A stretch of 64,000 bases of DNA, from NCBI GenBank assembly GCA_016793115.1, contig JAEUIN010000136.1:1-64000 (forward strand), given 5' to 3'. The DNA is from Planctomycetaceae bacterium (GTDB lineage Bacteria > Planctomycetota > Planctomycetia > Pirellulales > PNKZ01). Position 1 is the stretch's first letter. Each line of letters starts with the position of its first letter. Positions 42,773 to 51,259 of this stretch are shown one piece after another. The notes under the pieces were generated by a model that saw only the letters and a list, made by a program, of their open reading frames with translations, had not been told where the DNA came from and did not search any database. The translations under genes were made by a program, and so were the position numbers.

Positions 42773-42876
42773 CTGTAGGGAACGCCCTCTGTGGCGTTCC
42801 GGGATGCTGGTACCCGTCGCGCGGAACGCCGCGGAGGGCGTTCCCTACAGAGATCGACGGAGGGCGTTCCCTACAG
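42773..42876. repeat. CTGTAGGGAACGCCC inverted repeat
   Basis: Left arm CTGTAGGGAACGCCCTC and GGCGTTCCG (42773-42801); right arm CGGAACGCCGCGGAGGGCG and TTCCCTACAG (42822-42850); a third half copy GGAGGGCGTTCCCTACAG (42859-42876). The last one contains the TAG stop (42871-42873) of the Tm-1-like gene. Confidence 0.8.
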
Positions 42877-44079
42877 GGCGGATCCGGCGGCGGCTAGGCG
42901 GTTGTATTCTGCGACGAGGGCGGCGCTGAAGTCCGGGTCGTTCACGTGTAGCGGCAGGCGGACGATGCGGCGCTCGGGCGACGTCTGCAACGTCGCTTCC
43001 AGTTCGGCGAAGAGCGCGGCGTCGGCCGTGGGATCGTGGAACGGCAGGCCGGGGGCGTCGAGCGCCGAGAGGCCGCGCTCGGGGATCACGAGCGTCCACG
43101 GCGCGGTCGCGGTATTGAGCTTCGCGGCGATCCAGCGGGCGATGCGGCGACACTCGTCGGCCGTCGTGCGCAACAGCGTCACTTGTGCGTTGTGCACGTG
43201 GAGCAAGCGACCGGCGAACTGCGGCGGCACGGTGTCCCGCGCGCCGAAGTTCACCATGTCGAGCGCTCCCAAGCTCCACACGTACGGCACGCGGGCCGCG
43301 AGAATCGCATCGAACCGCGTCGGGCCGCAGCGCAACACGCCGCCGACGACTTCATCGGCCACGGCGGTCGTCGTGGCGTCGATCACGCCGTCGACGAGGC
43401 CGGAGCGGACGAGGTTTTCCATCGCGCGATCGCCGGAGCCGGTCGCATGGAAGACGAGACACTCGTGCCCGCCGGCGGCGAGCGTTTGCCGCACGCGATC
43501 GACGCAGGGAGTGGTGACGCCGAACATGGTCATGGCGACGGTCGGGCCGGAAGCTTGCGACTCGGCCTCCGCCGTTTCGAAGCGGACCATGCCGGCCATG
43601 GCGTGCGCGGCGTTGCTCAAGATGCGGCGCGACACGCGATTGAGCCCGGCGACGTCGACGACGGAGTAGAGCATTGCGATGTCGGACGAGCCGACGTACG
43701 GCGCGCAGTTGCCGGCCGCCATGGTCGACACCATGAGCTTGGGCAGGCCGACGGGCAAGGCCTGCATGGCGGGCGTGACGAGCGCGGTGCCGCCGCCGCC
43801 GCCGAGCCCGAGCACGCCGGCGACGCGGCCGGCCGCGTGCAGCTCAAGGAGAAACGCCGAGAGCGCGGCCGACAAGGCCGTGACCGCGGCGCCGCGATCG
43901 TCGCCGAGTTCGGGCGGGGCGAACGACTCGCGCGGGATGTCGGGCACGACCGCCGGCGGAGCGTGCGTGCCGACGTCGACGAGCAGGGCCGACGCGCCGC
44001 ACGCGCGGAGCCGCTCGACGACGAATTGCGCTTCCGCGCCTTTGGTGTCGAGCGTGGCGACGACGTAGATCGATTTCAT
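42871..44079 (-). CDS. Tm-1-like ATP-binding protein (UPF0261)
   Basis: A 402-residue protein of the UPF0261/Tm-1 N-terminal family: start MKSIYVVATLDTKGAEAQF, the nucleotide-binding stretch GVLGLGGGGGTALVT, the block MVSTMAAGNCAPYVGSSDIA and the C-terminal LPLHVNDPDFSAA. In plants the same domain is fused to a PEP-hydrolase-like TIM barrel in the tomato Tm-1 protein; here the barrel is the next gene upstream on the same strand. Members bind ATP, but the cellular reaction is not known. The stop codon lies in a repeat, leaving the tail AAAGSAL. Confidence 0.9.
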   Translation of the reverse strand: MKSIYVVATLDTKGAEAQFVVERLRACGASALLVDVGTHAPPAVVPDIPRESFAPPELGDDRGAAVTALSAALSAFLLELHAAGRVAGVLGLGGGGGTALVTPAMQALPVGLPKLMVSTMAAGNCAPYVGSSDIAMLYSVVDVAGLNRVSRRILSNAAHAMAGMVRFETAEAESQASGPTVAMTMFGVTTPCVDRVRQTLAAGGHECLVFHATGSGDRAMENLVRSGLVDGVIDATTTAVADEVVGGVLRCGPTRFDAILAARVPYVWSLGALDMVNFGARDTVPPQFAGRLLHVHNAQVTLLRTTADECRRIARWIAAKLNTATAPWTLVIPERGLSALDAPGLPFHDPTADAALFAELEATLQTSPERRIVRLPLHVNDPDFSAALVAEYNRLAAAGSAL

Positions 44080-44092
44080 AATGCGCTACTCG

Positions 44093-44299
44093 GATTCACA
44101 ACGGAGGCCCCGGAGTGCCCGGAGGGAGGAAGGGAGTGAGAGTGTCTCTGGGCGAGCGGCGGGGTTTAACCCCGCCGTCTGCTTCCGGTTGGCGTTTCTC
44201 AGACGGCGGGGATAAACCCCGCCGCTCGCTGTCGTCATTGGAAATCCGCTCTGCTTGCTCACGCTTCTCTCCGGGATCTCCGGGGTCTCCGTTGTGAAT
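44093..44299. repeat. Two nested inverted repeats between Tm-1-like and PEP-hydrolase-like genes
   Basis: Outer arms: ATTCACAACGGAGGCCCCGG (44093-44121) and CCGGGGTCTCCGTTGTGAAT (44271-44299). Inner arms: GAGCGGCGGGGTTTAACCCC (44153-44181) and GGGGATAAACCCCGCCGCTC (44200-44228). The stop of the upstream gene ends two bases outside the outer arm. Confidence 0.8.
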
Positions 44300-44301
44300 C
44301 T

Positions 44302-45159
44302 CTAAGTGCGGATCGCTTTGAACTTTTGCGTGATTTCGACGAGCGGCTGCTCGACGGCCATCCGCTCGAGGCTCGATGCGCCGACGAAGCCGACGCAGTT
44401 TGTGCGGCGGATCACTTCCGCGGCGTCGGCCGGCGCGGCGATCGGGCCGCCGTGGCAGAGGAAGAAGATGTCGTCGCGGACGGCGCTCGCCGCGTCGATC
44501 ACCGCCGCCGTCTTCGCCACCGCGTCGTCCATTGAGCAAGCCGCGCCGGTCACGCCGATCGAGCCGCCGACCGTGGTGCCGACGTGCGCGATGATCGCGT
44601 CGGCCCCGGCCTCGGCCATCGCCTTGGCCTCCTCCGGCGTGGCCACATACGTGATCGTGAACAGGTCCATTTTGCGCGCGAGCGCGACCATTTCGAATTC
44701 CTTCGCGACGCTCATCCCGGTCTCTTCCAGGATTTGCCGGAAGTTGCCGTCGACGATTGCGTGCGTCGGAAAGTTGTTCACGCCGCTGAAGCCCATCTCT
44801 TTGACCTTCAACAGCCAATGCCACATCCGCCGGCGCGGGTCGGTGGCATGCACGCCGCAGATGACGGGGACTTCCTGCACGACGGGCAACACTTCGAACT
44901 CGCCGATCTCCATGGCCACGGCGTTGGCGTCGCCGTACGACATGAGGCCGGCCGTGGAGCCGTGGCCGGCCATGCGGTAGCGGCCGGAGTTGTAGACGAT
45001 GATCAGGTCGGCCCCGCCGCGCTCGATGAACTTGGCCGAGATGCCGGTGCCCGCCCCGGCGGCGAGGAGCGGCTCGCCGCGGTCGAGGGCCGCTTGCAGC
45101 CGGTCGCGCACTTCTTGGCGGGTGTAGGGATTGCCTCGGCCGGTCCAGGGATTGGGCAT
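44302..45159 (-). CDS. PEP-hydrolase-like TIM-barrel protein (Tm-1 C-terminal domain)
   Basis: A 285-residue TIM barrel of the phosphoenolpyruvate hydrolase-like family: SAKFIERGGADLIIVYNSGR near residue 45, VPVICGVHATDP, FSGVNNFPTHAIVDGNFR, ADAIIAHVGTTVGGSIG and late GFVGASSLERMAVE. The family is related to PEP mutase-type enzymes and forms the second half of Tm-1-like proteins in plants and fungi. ATG 45157-45159 (MPNPWTGRGNPYTRQEV) is chosen since upstream sequence overlaps direct repeats and is not conserved. It is paired with the Tm-1-like gene, with a repeat-filled gap of 222 bases between. Confidence 0.88.
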   Translation of the reverse strand: MPNPWTGRGNPYTRQEVRDRLQAALDRGEPLLAAGAGTGISAKFIERGGADLIIVYNSGRYRMAGHGSTAGLMSYGDANAVAMEIGEFEVLPVVQEVPVICGVHATDPRRRMWHWLLKVKEMGFSGVNNFPTHAIVDGNFRQILEETGMSVAKEFEMVALARKMDLFTITYVATPEEAKAMAEAGADAIIAHVGTTVGGSIGVTGAACSMDDAVAKTAAVIDAASAVRDDIFFLCHGGPIAAPADAAEVIRRTNCVGFVGASSLERMAVEQPLVEITQKFKAIRT

Positions 45160-45312
45160 GGGCGGTTCTGGGTTCAGGGTTGGCGGTTCAGGGTTCACGG
45201 TTGGCGGTTTAGCCACCCGTTCCACGGCGTGCAATCGTCGTGGGGCCAGGATAATATGACGCCGCTTGCCGAGCGATCTCTTCTCCGCACATCTCGCCGA
45301 GGTTCGTCGACC

Positions 45313-46600: not shown

Positions 46601-47314
46601 ATGTCGCAAGTTGTTCTGATTCTGCCCGGCGCTACGGATTACGAGCTGCAAGGACGCATTCAAGGCGATCTCGACATCCCGTTGTGCGAAGAAGGTCGCG
46701 TAGAAGTCCAACGCGTCGCCCGCGAGTTGCAAGACTTGGGGCTCGACGTCGTTTACAGTTCCTGCTGCTCGTCGGCCGCTCAGACGGCCGAGGGCATCGC
46801 CAAGGCACTGGGCATTAAGACGAAAAAGCTCGACAACCTCGAAAACCTCGACCACGGACTGTGGCAGGGGCTGTTGATCGACGAAGTCCGGCAGAAACAG
46901 CCGAAAGTCTATCGCCAATGGCAGGAGCACCCCGAAAGCTGCTGCCCTCCGGAGGGTGAGACCATCGAGCATGCCCGCGGCCGTGTCGAGGGGGCGCTCG
47001 CGAAGCTGCTGAAGAAGCACAAAGACGGCGTGTTCGGGCTCGTGGTGCCGGAGCCGTTGGCCAGCGTGGTGCGCGAATACTTGGGTGAGTCCGAGTTGGG
47101 CGACCTTTGGGAAGCCACCTGCGAACATGGCCGCTGGAGCCTGATTTCGGTCGATGCGGCCGCTCCCGGAAGCGGCCGAGCAATCGCCAAGTCGCCCGAC
47201 GCGGCGGCCGACGAGCGCGGCGCGAACGATCATTCGGGCGCTCTGCAAGCCGAGGTCGGCGGCGTATACTCGGACGTTGCGGCCGCAGCCGCTCCTCAGA
47301 AGCTCGCCCAATAA
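46601..47314 (+). CDS. Histidine-phosphatase-fold protein without catalytic residues
   Basis: A 237-residue protein with the phosphoglycerate-mutase-like fold: GRIQGDLDIPLCEEGRVEVQ, VYSSCCSSAAQTAEGIAKAL and LDHGLWQGLLIDEV correspond to family blocks. The active site is gone: the RHG motif (LVRHGET) reads LILPGAT, the second Arg (SPLRRA) is replaced in SSCCSSAA, and the second His region reads LVVPEPLASVV. It should not be a phosphatase and may be a binding or regulatory protein. The tail is Ala-rich. It ends 15 bases before accD, so both are probably one operon. Confidence 0.78.
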   Translation: MSQVVLILPGATDYELQGRIQGDLDIPLCEEGRVEVQRVARELQDLGLDVVYSSCCSSAAQTAEGIAKALGIKTKKLDNLENLDHGLWQGLLIDEVRQKQPKVYRQWQEHPESCCPPEGETIEHARGRVEGALAKLLKKHKDGVFGLVVPEPLASVVREYLGESELGDLWEATCEHGRWSLISVDAAAPGSGRAIAKSPDAAADERGANDHSGALQAEVGGVYSDVAAAAAPQKLAQ

Positions 47315-47329
47315 GGAACCTGCCGAGAG

Positions 47330-48184
47330 ATGTCGACCGGGAACGAAGCCGAAACCGTCGCCGCCGAATCCACGAAGCCCCAAGCCAAGCGGGGCGTACC
47401 GGAAGGGTTGTGGAAGCGCTGTCCCGGCTGCAAGCAAACGATCTTTCGTAAGCAGGCCGAGCAGATGCTCGGAGTCTGCCCGGAATGCGACTACCACTGG
47501 ACCGTGGGCGCTCGCGAACGCCTGAATCAATTGCTCGACGAAGGGACGTTCGAAGAGATCGACGCGAACCTGGTGTCGGGCGACCCGTTGGGCTTCTTCG
47601 ACAGCAAGCCGTACGTCGATCGCATTAAATCGGAACAAGCGCGGACCGGCCTGCGCGACGCGGCGCTGACCGGCACCGGGATGATTCGCGCGCGGCGCGT
47701 GGCCGTGGGCGTGACCGACAGCGCGTTTATCATGGGGAGCATGGGTTCGGTCGTCGGCGAAAAGCTGACGCGGCTCTGCGAGAAAGCCACCGAACAGAAG
47801 TTGCCGCTGATCATCGTGAGCGGCTCGGGCGGCGGCGCTCGCATGCACGAAGGCATCCTCTCGCTGATGCAGATGGCGAAGGTGTCGTCGGCCTTGGCCC
47901 GCTACGATCAGGCGGGCGGGTTATTTATTTCCGTACTGACGAACCCGACGATGGGGGGCGTGGCCGCGAGCTTCGCATCGCTGGGCGACTTCGTGATCGC
48001 CGAACCGAAAGCGCTGATCGGATTCGCGGGCCCGCGCACGATTTCGGCGACGATCCGCATTGAATTGCCGAAGGGTTTTCAGACGAGCGAGTTTCTGCTC
48101 GAGCACGGGTTCATCGACCGAATCGTGAGCCGGCGGAATCTGAAGACCGAGATCGCGCAGATTATCGACTACTGCGGCAAGTAG
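47330..48184 (+). CDS. accD: Acetyl-CoA carboxylase carboxyltransferase subunit beta
   Basis: A 284-residue subunit. The N-terminal zinc ribbon has C31, C34, C50 and C53 ([17 protein letters not shown]), and the carboxyltransferase domain has [12 protein letters not shown]-like [31 protein letters not shown] and GFAGPRTI. With accA it transfers carboxyl from biotin to acetyl-CoA for malonyl-CoA in fatty acid synthesis; accA is not in the window. The stop is TAG at the end of IIDYCGK. It is coupled to the inactive phosphatase-fold gene. Confidence 0.96.
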
Positions 48185-48322: not shown

Positions 48323-49966
48323 ATGCAACGCCGACATTTTCTCGGTGCGCTCGCCGCGGTTCCCGGTGCGCTGTCCGCCGCCGCCTCGCAGGCCGCTCGG
48401 GGAGGCGTGCCCGACGCCGAGTTGGAGAATCCCTACGCCGACGTCGACTGGGATCGTTGCGCGTTCGTCCCCTCGATGTCGCATCAGCATCAAGGGCAGA
48501 CCGACGCCTCGCGCGACGTGTTCTACGAGATGGGATACCGGCACTTCGCGTTCAGCAATTACTACCCTTCGAGTCCGACGCCGCTTCCCGACGACTATCG
48601 CGCGCGGCATCCCGACGTCGCGACGGCCCCGAACGCGGAGCAGCATTCGTTTACCGACGCCGGGCTGCATTTCAACGGCCTCGGCAGCTTGTTGGCGACC
48701 GGCTACGGTAAGTCGCTCGGTGCGCGCGACTATGCCGCGACGCCGCTCGTCCACCGTTTTGAGAAGCTCAACGTGTTCAGCGCCGCGCGGCCGGCCGAGG
48801 GCGTTTATCGCTTAGACGTCTACCTCAAGAACGTCGCCGGCGACGGCAAGACGCCGGGGCCCGCCCTGCTCACCGTCGAGGGCGCGACCGAATGTGCGCA
48901 CCGTGAGCGGTTCGCCGATCGCGGGCCGATCGAGAATCGTCCTTTCACGGCAGGAAAGCACGCGATCTACCTGCGCACGTCGGCGCCGACGTTGGCGACG
49001 AAACTTGTCTACGATCCAAAGCAGATCGCGGTGACCGGCTTCCGCCTGATGCAAGGGACCAATCGTCCGTGGCGCGAGATGTTTCGCGCGGCTCTCGACG
49101 GCGAAACGATCGACGGGCGACAAGTCGGCGGATTGCTCTACCAAGACGGCGGCGGCATCACGCTCAATCATCCCGGCGCGGCCGCCGACGAATACCTGCC
49201 GATGCTCGACTTCGACCCGCGCGTGCTCGGCATCGAGGTTTGGAATCAGCATTTCGGCTTCGGCGCGGGAAGCGAGCGGGCGGGCGACGTCAATCTGCAC
49301 TACTATCGCCTGTGGGACGATCTGTTGCGAGCCGGGCGGCGCTGCTGGGGCTTCTTCGTGAAAGACCACCTGACGTACGGTCGCGGGCGCAACGTGCTCT
49401 TGTTGCCGCCGGCGTCGAGCGCGAGCGCCGCCGAGCACGACGCCGCCGCGCTGCGCGCCTATCGCCGCGGCGCGTTTTTCGGCGCGGTCTCGTCGATCGC
49501 CGTGAACGACGACGGCGAAGCCGCGCCGCCCCATGATCGCAGCGCGTTTCGTTTCCGGCGGATCGCCGTTCGTCGCGACGAAGCGGGCCGAGCCGCGGCG
49601 ATCGAGGTCGCCGTCGCAGGTCACGACGCCGCGCTGCGGCCGAACGTGCAGATCCGTTTCGTCACCGATCAAGGGACGGCCGCCGTCGTCGACGCCGAGC
49701 GCGGCGAGTTCGTTCTTCCGCGCCACGACGACGGCCGGCTCATTCCGCAGTTCGTGCGGATCGAAGCATTTGCTTATCCGCGCACGCACCAGCGCGGCGT
49801 GGCGCTCACGGCCGCCGAGGTCGGAAAAATGAGCGTCCACGAAATCTCGCAGTTGCACGACCACCGCACGAAGCTCGGCCCGGCCAACTACGGCGGCACC
49901 GACGATCCGGCTCCGCCGATCCCGATCGCCGATCTCATCTTTTCGCAACCGCTCCGCCGCGTCTGA
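48323..49966 (+). CDS. PHP-domain-like secreted protein with Tat signal
   Basis: A 547-residue protein. The N-terminus MQRRHFLGALAAVPGALS is a twin-arginine signal, so it is folded before export. It then has SMSHQHQGQTD and YEMGYRHFAFSNYYPSSPTP, like the first metal motif of PHP (polymerase/histidinol phosphatase) domains, with HxH replaced by HQH. The centre (about 160-260) resembles an inserted beta domain. Towards the C-terminus are VEVWNQHFGFG and GRRCWGFFVKDHLTYGRG. The metal-binding set seems partial. A hydrolytic role on phosphoesters is possible; not certain. Confidence 0.58.
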   Translation: MQRRHFLGALAAVPGALSAAASQAARGGVPDAELENPYADVDWDRCAFVPSMSHQHQGQTDASRDVFYEMGYRHFAFSNYYPSSPTPLPDDYRARHPDVATAPNAEQHSFTDAGLHFNGLGSLLATGYGKSLGARDYAATPLVHRFEKLNVFSAARPAEGVYRLDVYLKNVAGDGKTPGPALLTVEGATECAHRERFADRGPIENRPFTAGKHAIYLRTSAPTLATKLVYDPKQIAVTGFRLMQGTNRPWREMFRAALDGETIDGRQVGGLLYQDGGGITLNHPGAAADEYLPMLDFDPRVLGIEVWNQHFGFGAGSERAGDVNLHYYRLWDDLLRAGRRCWGFFVKDHLTYGRGRNVLLLPPASSASAAEHDAAALRAYRRGAFFGAVSSIAVNDDGEAAPPHDRSAFRFRRIAVRRDEAGRAAAIEVAVAGHDAALRPNVQIRFVTDQGTAAVVDAERGEFVLPRHDDGRLIPQFVRIEAFAYPRTHQRGVALTAAEVGKMSVHEISQLHDHRTKLGPANYGGTDDPAPPIPIADLIFSQPLRRV

Positions 49967-49981
49967 TCCGATGCTCGGCGG

Positions 49982-51259
49982 TTACGACTTCAACCGACCT
50001 TCGTAGGCCCACAGGCCCAGGGCCGGGTTGCCGATGAAGTAGAACGGCGAGCCGTCGGCGTCGGTGTGCCAGCCGTCGGTGAGTTTCGTGTGGTCGTAGC
50101 GGGCCGACATTTCGGCCAAGTCGGCATATTGATAACCGACCCCCTCCACTTCCTCGCGCGTCAGCCCGCCGGGGCAATAGGTGACGTCGAACCGTCCTTC
50201 CGACGAGCCGTGGATGAGGTGCGCCGCCGCCGAGAGATTGCCTTGCAAGTCGGCGTTGTCGCGCATGAAGCCCATGATTTCCGGCGTCGTGCGATAGCCG
50301 TACTTGCGGATCAATACGTCGATCTGCGGGTCTTCGCCGAACGTCTTCACGCCCGGCGCGAGCACGATGAGCTGCCCGCGATCGGCGATCGCCATCCGGG
50401 TGCGATAGATCGACTTGTTGCCGAGCCACGTGCTGTGGAACTCTTCTTCGTCGAGATAGACGACGACCTTCGGCAACTCCTGCGTGAGGATCGAGAAGTT
50501 CACCTTGATCGACAGCGCAGCCGCTTGCTCGTAGCAGTCGTGATCGTCGCCGATGAAGAGGCCGCGGGTCACGAGTTCGCGGCGCTCGTTCGTGCCGACG
50601 ACGGTGAGCACGTACAGCAGCGGCAGGTGCCGGCAGAAATGTTCTTGCGCGTAGTTAAGGATGCGGCGGAGCGGCGTATCGGCGCGCCCCATCATCCGCT
50701 CCATGCCGTAGGCCGCGCCGATGAAGTGGCTTTCGTTGATCCCTTCGGAGCCGCCGGTGCCGACGAAGATGTTTTTGTTGTAGTTGGCCATCCCCATGAC
50801 TTCGTGCGGGACGACCTGGCCGATCGAGAGAATGAGATCGTGGCCCCCTTGCCAGAGCAGCTTGTTGAGCTGCGCCGGCCAGGGCTTGGTCCAGATGCCT
50901 TCGGTCGCGCGGCCGACGAACTCGGCCGGCACCGTGCCGATGGTGACGACGTCGTCGCGCCAGCGATGCGGCCGAAACAACTCATGCGGCACGCCGGGAA
51001 ACATCTTGTCCAACTGCCAGGCGGGCATCGGAAAGTGCGTGCCGAGCGCCGGCATGACGTCGACGAGCCGGTCGCCGTAGTAGTCGTGCGTCTGACAGGT
51101 GAGCAGCCCGGCGCGGCTGTTGAAGCGCGTGAAGTCGGGCGGCACGGCGAGCACGCGGTTGCGCTCGCCGAGCTTGCGAAAGGTGCCGTGGAGCGCGTCG
51201 CGCAGATCGTCGGCCGAGAGTTCCGTCGTCGGCGAACCGACGGCGTAGTAAGTCGTCAT
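49982..51259 (-). CDS. LarA-like nickel-pincer racemase
   Basis: A 425-residue protein of the LarA (DUF2088) family. Residue spacing compared with lactate racemase: GTHFP (H75) for H108, PHEVMG (H152) for H174, K162 for the cofactor lysine K184, and H178 (NESHFIG) for the Ni ligand H200; the intervals of 10 and 16 residues match. The residue equal to C176 is Val. So the nickel-pincer enzyme chemistry is plausible, but no larB, larC or larE is nearby. The substrate, perhaps a hydroxy acid, is unknown. The gap to the ceramidase gene is 35 bases. Confidence 0.8.
   Translation of the reverse strand: MTTYYAVGSPTTELSADDLRDALHGTFRKLGERNRVLAVPPDFTRFNSRAGLLTCQTHDYYGDRLVDVMPALGTHFPMPAWQLDKMFPGVPHELFRPHRWRDDVVTIGTVPAEFVGRATEGIWTKPWPAQLNKLLWQGGHDLILSIGQVVPHEVMGMANYNKNIFVGTGGSEGINESHFIGAAYGMERMMGRADTPLRRILNYAQEHFCRHLPLLYVLTVVGTNERRELVTRGLFIGDDHDCYEQAAALSIKVNFSILTQELPKVVVYLDEEEFHSTWLGNKSIYRTRMAIADRGQLIVLAPGVKTFGEDPQIDVLIRKYGYRTTPEIMGFMRDNADLQGNLSAAAHLIHGSSEGRFDVTYCPGGLTREEVEGVGYQYADLAEMSARYDHTKLTDGWHTDADGSPFYFIGNPALGLWAYEGRLKS

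Follow-up and report, generated by a model that had tools for sequence, protein, structure and literature searches.

What does a protein with the fold of a histidine phosphatase, apparently stripped of the residues needed for catalysis, do directly upstream of accD? The question is raised by the plus-strand gene at 46601-47314 of the window (the whole stretch of 64,000 nucleotides analysed), which codes for a pseudo-histidine-phosphatase of 237 aa, here called HP. The frame opens with ATG and its stop codon ends at 47314, and the ATG of accD lies at 47330, leaving an intergenic gap of 15 bases. The product of accD (47330-48184, plus strand, 284 aa), the carboxyltransferase subunit beta of acetyl-CoA carboxylase, matches TIGR00515 with 371.6 bits (E 2.6e-111), above the cut-off of 317. 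An earlier note on this DNA had pointed out the 15-base spacing and had described a histidine-phosphatase fold that is kept while RHG reads LPG and the second arginine and second histidine are gone, and our analysis bears out these readings.

HP matches Pfam His_Phos_1 (PF00300) over residues 10-186 with E 8.2e-34 and 117.4 bits, against a gathering score of 21.7. The AlphaFold2 model, built from 81 aligned sequences, has a mean pLDDT of 87.6 and a pTM of 0.77; block pLDDT is 93-99 for residues 1-180 and confidence is low from about residue 190 onward. The C-terminal tail (47168-47311, plus strand; block pLDDT 43-80 from residue 181) lies outside the conserved domain. PspA ranked first when the model was compared with solved structures (Foldseek, VIA-align 2; Z 24.9, rmsd 2.1 A, 186 residues), Z values against PspA, PhoE and PGM were 20-25, and the nearest solved relatives are PspA and PhoE/YhfR. 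By both profile and predicted fold, HP belongs to branch 1 of the histidine phosphatase superfamily. Since a confident predicted domain is combined with PspA as the top structural match, the fold, as modelled, is ordinary and the active site is not. Pro9, within LPG at codons 8-10 (46622-46630), aligns with the phospho-acceptor His9 of PspA (4ij5, wild type), and Leu8 stands where most relatives have Arg (RPG). In family alignments, SSCCSSAA at codons 53-60 (46757-46780) occupies the region of the second catalytic Arg, and VVPEPL at codons 148-153 (47042-47059) the site of the second catalytic His. The general-acid Glu is replaced by Asn at codon 82 (46844-46846), a further loss that the earlier note had not reported; all these sites are on the plus strand, and the last two also appear in our conservation table. 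Judged from these alignments, the domain is of the PspA/PhoE type with its catalytic set gone. HP thus lacks the phospho-acceptor His, the second His, the second Arg and the acid Glu that the superfamily uses in catalysis, so that annotation as a phosphatase or phosphoglycerate mutase is unwarranted despite superfamily membership. No NCBIfam equivalog scored over its cut-off against the protein: NF045917 (PspA phosphoserine phosphatase) gave 101.6 bits against an equivalog cut-off of 350, and TIGR01258 (2,3-BPG-dependent phosphoglycerate mutase) 22.9 bits against 81.7.

Loss of the catalytic residues is widely shared. Genome searches covered the phylum, with one additional scan of named genomes that gave 80 loci, the best of 350 related ones (labels below are G for genome, L for locus and f for family; G000 is the source genome of 46601-47314). 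A strong match to HP (E 1e-43 or better) was found in 39 of 40 related genomes, the source genome counted, and the fortieth, G032, has weak matches only, the best of them RHG-bearing. At 35 of the 39 strong-match loci accD is present, the other four (L009, L011, L025, L026) having no accD within reach. A class sample of 198 genomes yielded 142 matches at E 1e-20 or better, 131 of them reaching 1.4e-43 or better and the other 11 no better than 1.1e-28; among the weaker ones, G095 and G111 have a divergent HP still beside accD. In the order of the source organism, 46 of the 49 genomes of this sample fall in the strong group, the exceptions being G093, G134 and G198. The earlier note had asked whether the pair is conserved among planctomycete genomes, and of the 80 named loci (the best of 350) 75 have accD in the same orientation; across these 80, the RHG-His position is Pro in 72, Thr in 8 and His in none, and Asn replaces the acid Glu in 79. 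Pooling 216 loci gave 189 distinct HP sequences, of which 161 lie beside accD, while the remaining 28 either lie elsewhere or have accD out of reach. Homologues retaining RHG next to accD were named in that note as evidence that would speak against it; the RHG His occurs in 0 of 160 readable distinct accD-linked sequences, the remaining one being cut off at that position. The other 28 carry His in 17 and Pro in 11, and these 11 fit the dead group (those without this His) by score and motifs. Most Planctomycetia genomes examined keep the dead HP gene. As a separate observation, L080 (4001-4585) is a typical planctomycete HP-accD locus on a contig titled Candidatus Nealsonbacteria, probably a mislabelled contig or mixed bin.

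A tree built from 68 rows that we chose by hand among the available loci places a single branch between the 51 dead and the 17 His-bearing rows with support of 100/98.5, and the same division is recovered with the catalytic columns removed (99/97.2), where the bootstrap had not fully settled. L195 forms a long branch, and L025 and L196 are among the 51 dead rows, yet do not adjoin accD. Because the root was not inferred, one loss is the simplest reading of this tree and is unproven. Eight dead rows come from the outer families f27, f28, f42, f58, f72 and f81, and of 9 dead sequences from such families 89% keep the acid Glu; six outer loci (L202, L203, L205, L207, L208, L211) are accD-linked, with both His lost and the acid Glu mostly kept. 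The pattern of residues suggests that both His were lost before the acid Glu and that the outer families may represent an intermediate.

The pair does not stand alone, and its full context is the operon gap-pgk-rpe-HP-accD, which links sugar metabolism with the enzyme that opens fatty-acid synthesis. We located rpe by tblastn with the frame from L306, which we take from its sequence to code for ribulose-phosphate 3-epimerase; gap and pgk were named on the same basis. The median gap from rpe to HP is 15 nt (172 loci) and from HP to accD 91 nt (181 loci), and the order rpe-HP-accD occurs in 72 of the 75 named loci with accD. Among 42 further loci of the class, rpe is found in 37, gap in 21 and pgk in 14, while among 6 outer loci rpe is found in 4 and the whole operon in 3. 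After removal of 20 duplicates and of 25 loci that carry the His or cannot be read, 171 distinct dead copies remained: 144 have both rpe and accD, 14 accD only, 9 rpe only (all 9 with sequence enough to show accD) and none neither, and the other 4 lie at a contig end, 2 with rpe and 2 with accD. With the upstream side readable, rpe is present in 155 of 169 copies. The upstream rpe rules out accD as the sole conserved neighbour of HP. The coupling to accD proposed in the earlier note therefore stands as far as conservation of the pair goes, and has to be qualified in that rpe is nearer, that HP and accD are parts of a longer operon and that HP is not universal.

The locus at 46601-47314 lacks the rpe neighbour, its genus being among the 14 copies with accD only. 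In G000, the sole rpe match lies at G000:C293 (L319 / L329), away from HP. The rpe genes of the genus, this one included, resemble the operon type less (identity 45-50%, against 60-65% in G004 and G005), which gives the impression of a gene that has moved or been substituted. Arg8 is changed to Leu in the source genus, and 9 of 10 other rpe-less copies keep Arg, so the change and the absence of rpe are not tightly tied. Also in the window are a UPF0261 protein adjoining a phosphoenolpyruvate-hydrolase-like protein (PF09370) at 42871-45168 on the minus strand, and, past accD, two long open frames (48323-49966, plus strand; 49982-51259, minus strand) that had no Pfam match at E 1e-3. The source genome has two accA matches over cut-off (L320 and L321, G000:C295 and C358), one of which may be foreign, since this genome is listed with 7.9% contamination.

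Outside this distribution, the genomes tried from f23, f25 and f26 have no HP next to accD, nor have G077, G217, G093, G134 and G198, and in 6 of 11 f23 accD loci pgk lies upstream of accD in its place. The existence of accD without HP in several lineages indicates that the HP gene is dispensable in some of them. Among 80 further accD loci from the rest of the phylum, searched with a broad profile, L224 has the sole HP upstream of accD; in the other 79 it is absent, and rpe is present in 55 of the 80 and gap, pgk and rpe together in 30. HP-less gap-pgk-rpe-accD arrangements elsewhere in the phylum imply that the operon already stood when HP entered it or dropped out of it.

A gene that has lost its catalytic residues might simply be decaying, or its sequence might be in error, but loss of these residues is all that speaks for this reading, which we hold to be hardly conceivable: the frames of relatives are open and retention is wide. 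The 162 class-level dead sequences have N82 in 99%, P152 in 100%, E151 in 85% with D in a further 9%, and P9 in 88%, whereas position 82 is E or D in 17 of 17 His-bearing homologues and position 15 is D in 86% of the dead sequences and N in 94% of the His-bearing set; the two sets were sorted by residue 9, so their contrast is by construction there and not at other positions. Ratios of dN/dS were 0.072-0.190 (8 pairs from 8 HP sequences), and are rough because dS was at or above 1. Decay is ruled out by these ratios together with the near-invariant new residues. Catalytic residues lost across a clade and purifying selection, the marks of a pseudoenzyme, are both found in HP, and, since near-invariant new residues occupy the lost positions and dN/dS is low, HP is by its sequence a repurposed pseudoenzyme and not a decaying gene. 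That it is an active phosphatase or mutase misread in the earlier note is very improbable: the family match is strong, but neither His, the second Arg nor the Glu is there, and an RHG-bearing paralogue (L041, G000:C189) is present at another place in the genome. A re-invented enzyme, which would perform another reaction with the new N82 and E/D151 and the retained R19 and E120, is decidedly unlikely. The nearly invariant new residues of the old active site and the retention of R8 in 85% of class-level dead sequences are what such an enzyme would predict, but the old catalytic positions hold no conserved Cys, Ser or His nucleophile, the acceptor position is Pro, and R19, E120 and R128 are common in His-bearing homologues too. 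Because the gene is kept by most Planctomycetia examined despite loss of the catalytic residues, HP probably works through binding and not catalysis, and the refilling of old active-site positions with fixed new residues suggests a pocket that probably binds something without turning it over.

If HP is a binding protein, its partner has to be sought among its neighbours, unless it is a functionally independent passenger unrelated to them. That other families of the phylum have gap-pgk-rpe-accD and no HP is consistent with a passenger, but a free passenger would be expected to drift off more often, and not one of the 171 distinct copies (4 at a contig end) is known to lack both rpe and accD as neighbours, which makes this reading quite improbable. 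Partnership with Rpe, or with the gap-pgk-rpe part, with accD there only because it comes next in an old operon, is unlikely, although rpe is the closest neighbour, accompanies most copies and is found without accD in 9. Against it, accD stays where rpe is gone, the source genus included, with its more diverged rpe elsewhere, and co-divergence with HP is stronger for AccD. Distance partial correlation over the 139 loci with all three genes was 0.527 for HP-AccD given Rpe (bootstrap 5-95% 0.465-0.589) and 0.377 for HP-Rpe given AccD (0.262-0.459), with ranges that do not overlap; co-divergence is weak evidence and no proof of contact, because rates and ancestry also shape distances. The 14 copies with accD only count in favour of AccD, and the 9 with rpe only, the shorter distance to rpe and the lineages with accD and no HP count against it. 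In a co-fold of HP and AccD (AlphaFold2, read-through of both genes, 25 rows) pTM was 0.44, the AccD part was poorly modelled and no interface was supported.

Positions of AccD that would track HP loss were considered and rejected. Eight columns with conservation of 90% or more across 158 HP-bearing sequences change in at least 5 of 14 HP-less ones, with changes nearly all common to f23/f26 (and G093/G198, one genus), and four HP-less genomes (G134, G044, G077, G217) show no change at any of the eight; the changes are clade signatures, and no AccD surface is tied to HP. Pro235 of AccD (window numbering) is present in 100% of the 158 HP-bearing sequences and 97% of 79 outer AccDs, and residue 235 is Lys or Arg in the f23/f26 loci tried (L302, L303, L307, L308, L310, L312, L317, L318).

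Based on gene order and co-divergence, our guess is that AccD is the likeliest partner of HP, and the same two pointers lead us to guess at sensing or regulation of acetyl-CoA carboxylase. That HP is a pseudoenzyme of the PspA/PhoE type acting by binding on acetyl-CoA carboxylase via AccD is, in our estimation, evenly balanced between true and false. The phospho-acceptor His, the second His and the second Arg would have been lost once, early at the HP locus, and the exchange of the acid Glu for Asn would have come later. HP would be made from a carbon-flow operon, gap-pgk-rpe-HP-accD, into which it would have been recruited once, and its remodelled pocket would hold a metabolite or a loop of a protein and not turn it over. 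Through AccD it would act on the carboxyltransferase half, whose activity or assembly it would adjust to the state of sugar phosphates or lipids. The more specific proposal, that HP is a dedicated pseudo-phosphatase subunit in most Planctomycetia whose pocket reads a sugar-phosphate or lipid-precursor signal and sets carboxyltransferase activity, so that malonyl-CoA would be tied to glycolysis and the pentose-phosphate path inside a single operon, is speculative and we consider it somewhat unlikely.

The family name alone would mislabel HP as a phosphatase or phosphoglycerate mutase, an error to which its seat by gap and pgk in many genomes tempts. How acetyl-CoA carboxylase is adjusted is poorly known in many bacteria, and HP offers a testable candidate control. 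HP also shows a metabolic phosphatase fold that seems to have become a binding protein, a change for which the outer families offer a possible intermediate. A search of titles and abstract openings found no literature on the HP gene, subscription papers and preprints being largely outside its coverage.

Among characterised proteins, PspA of Hydrogenobacter thermophilus (4ij5/4ij6) is closest to HP in both sequence and fold among solved structures (phmmer E 7e-25 to 1e-24, Z 24-25, rmsd 2.1 A, about 28-30% identity), but PspA has His9 (4ij6 being the H9A mutant), and HP has lost that His along with the second His, the second Arg and the Glu. A parallel in function may be found among accessory proteins of the carboxylase. 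In plants, heteromeric acetyl-CoA carboxylase is regulated by the BADC proteins, which are inactive relatives of one of its parts, the biotin carrier subunit, whereas the relative of HP is a phosphatase. In Bacillus subtilis, the gene yqhY adjoins accBC. Its product, a conserved protein of the Asp23 family, is proposed to control acetyl-CoA carboxylase activity, and suppressors in acc genes are described for yqhY (PMC5437119). YqhY is unrelated to HP, whose neighbour is accD, but by analogy HP may work like accessory regulators of acetyl-CoA carboxylase of the YqhY type.
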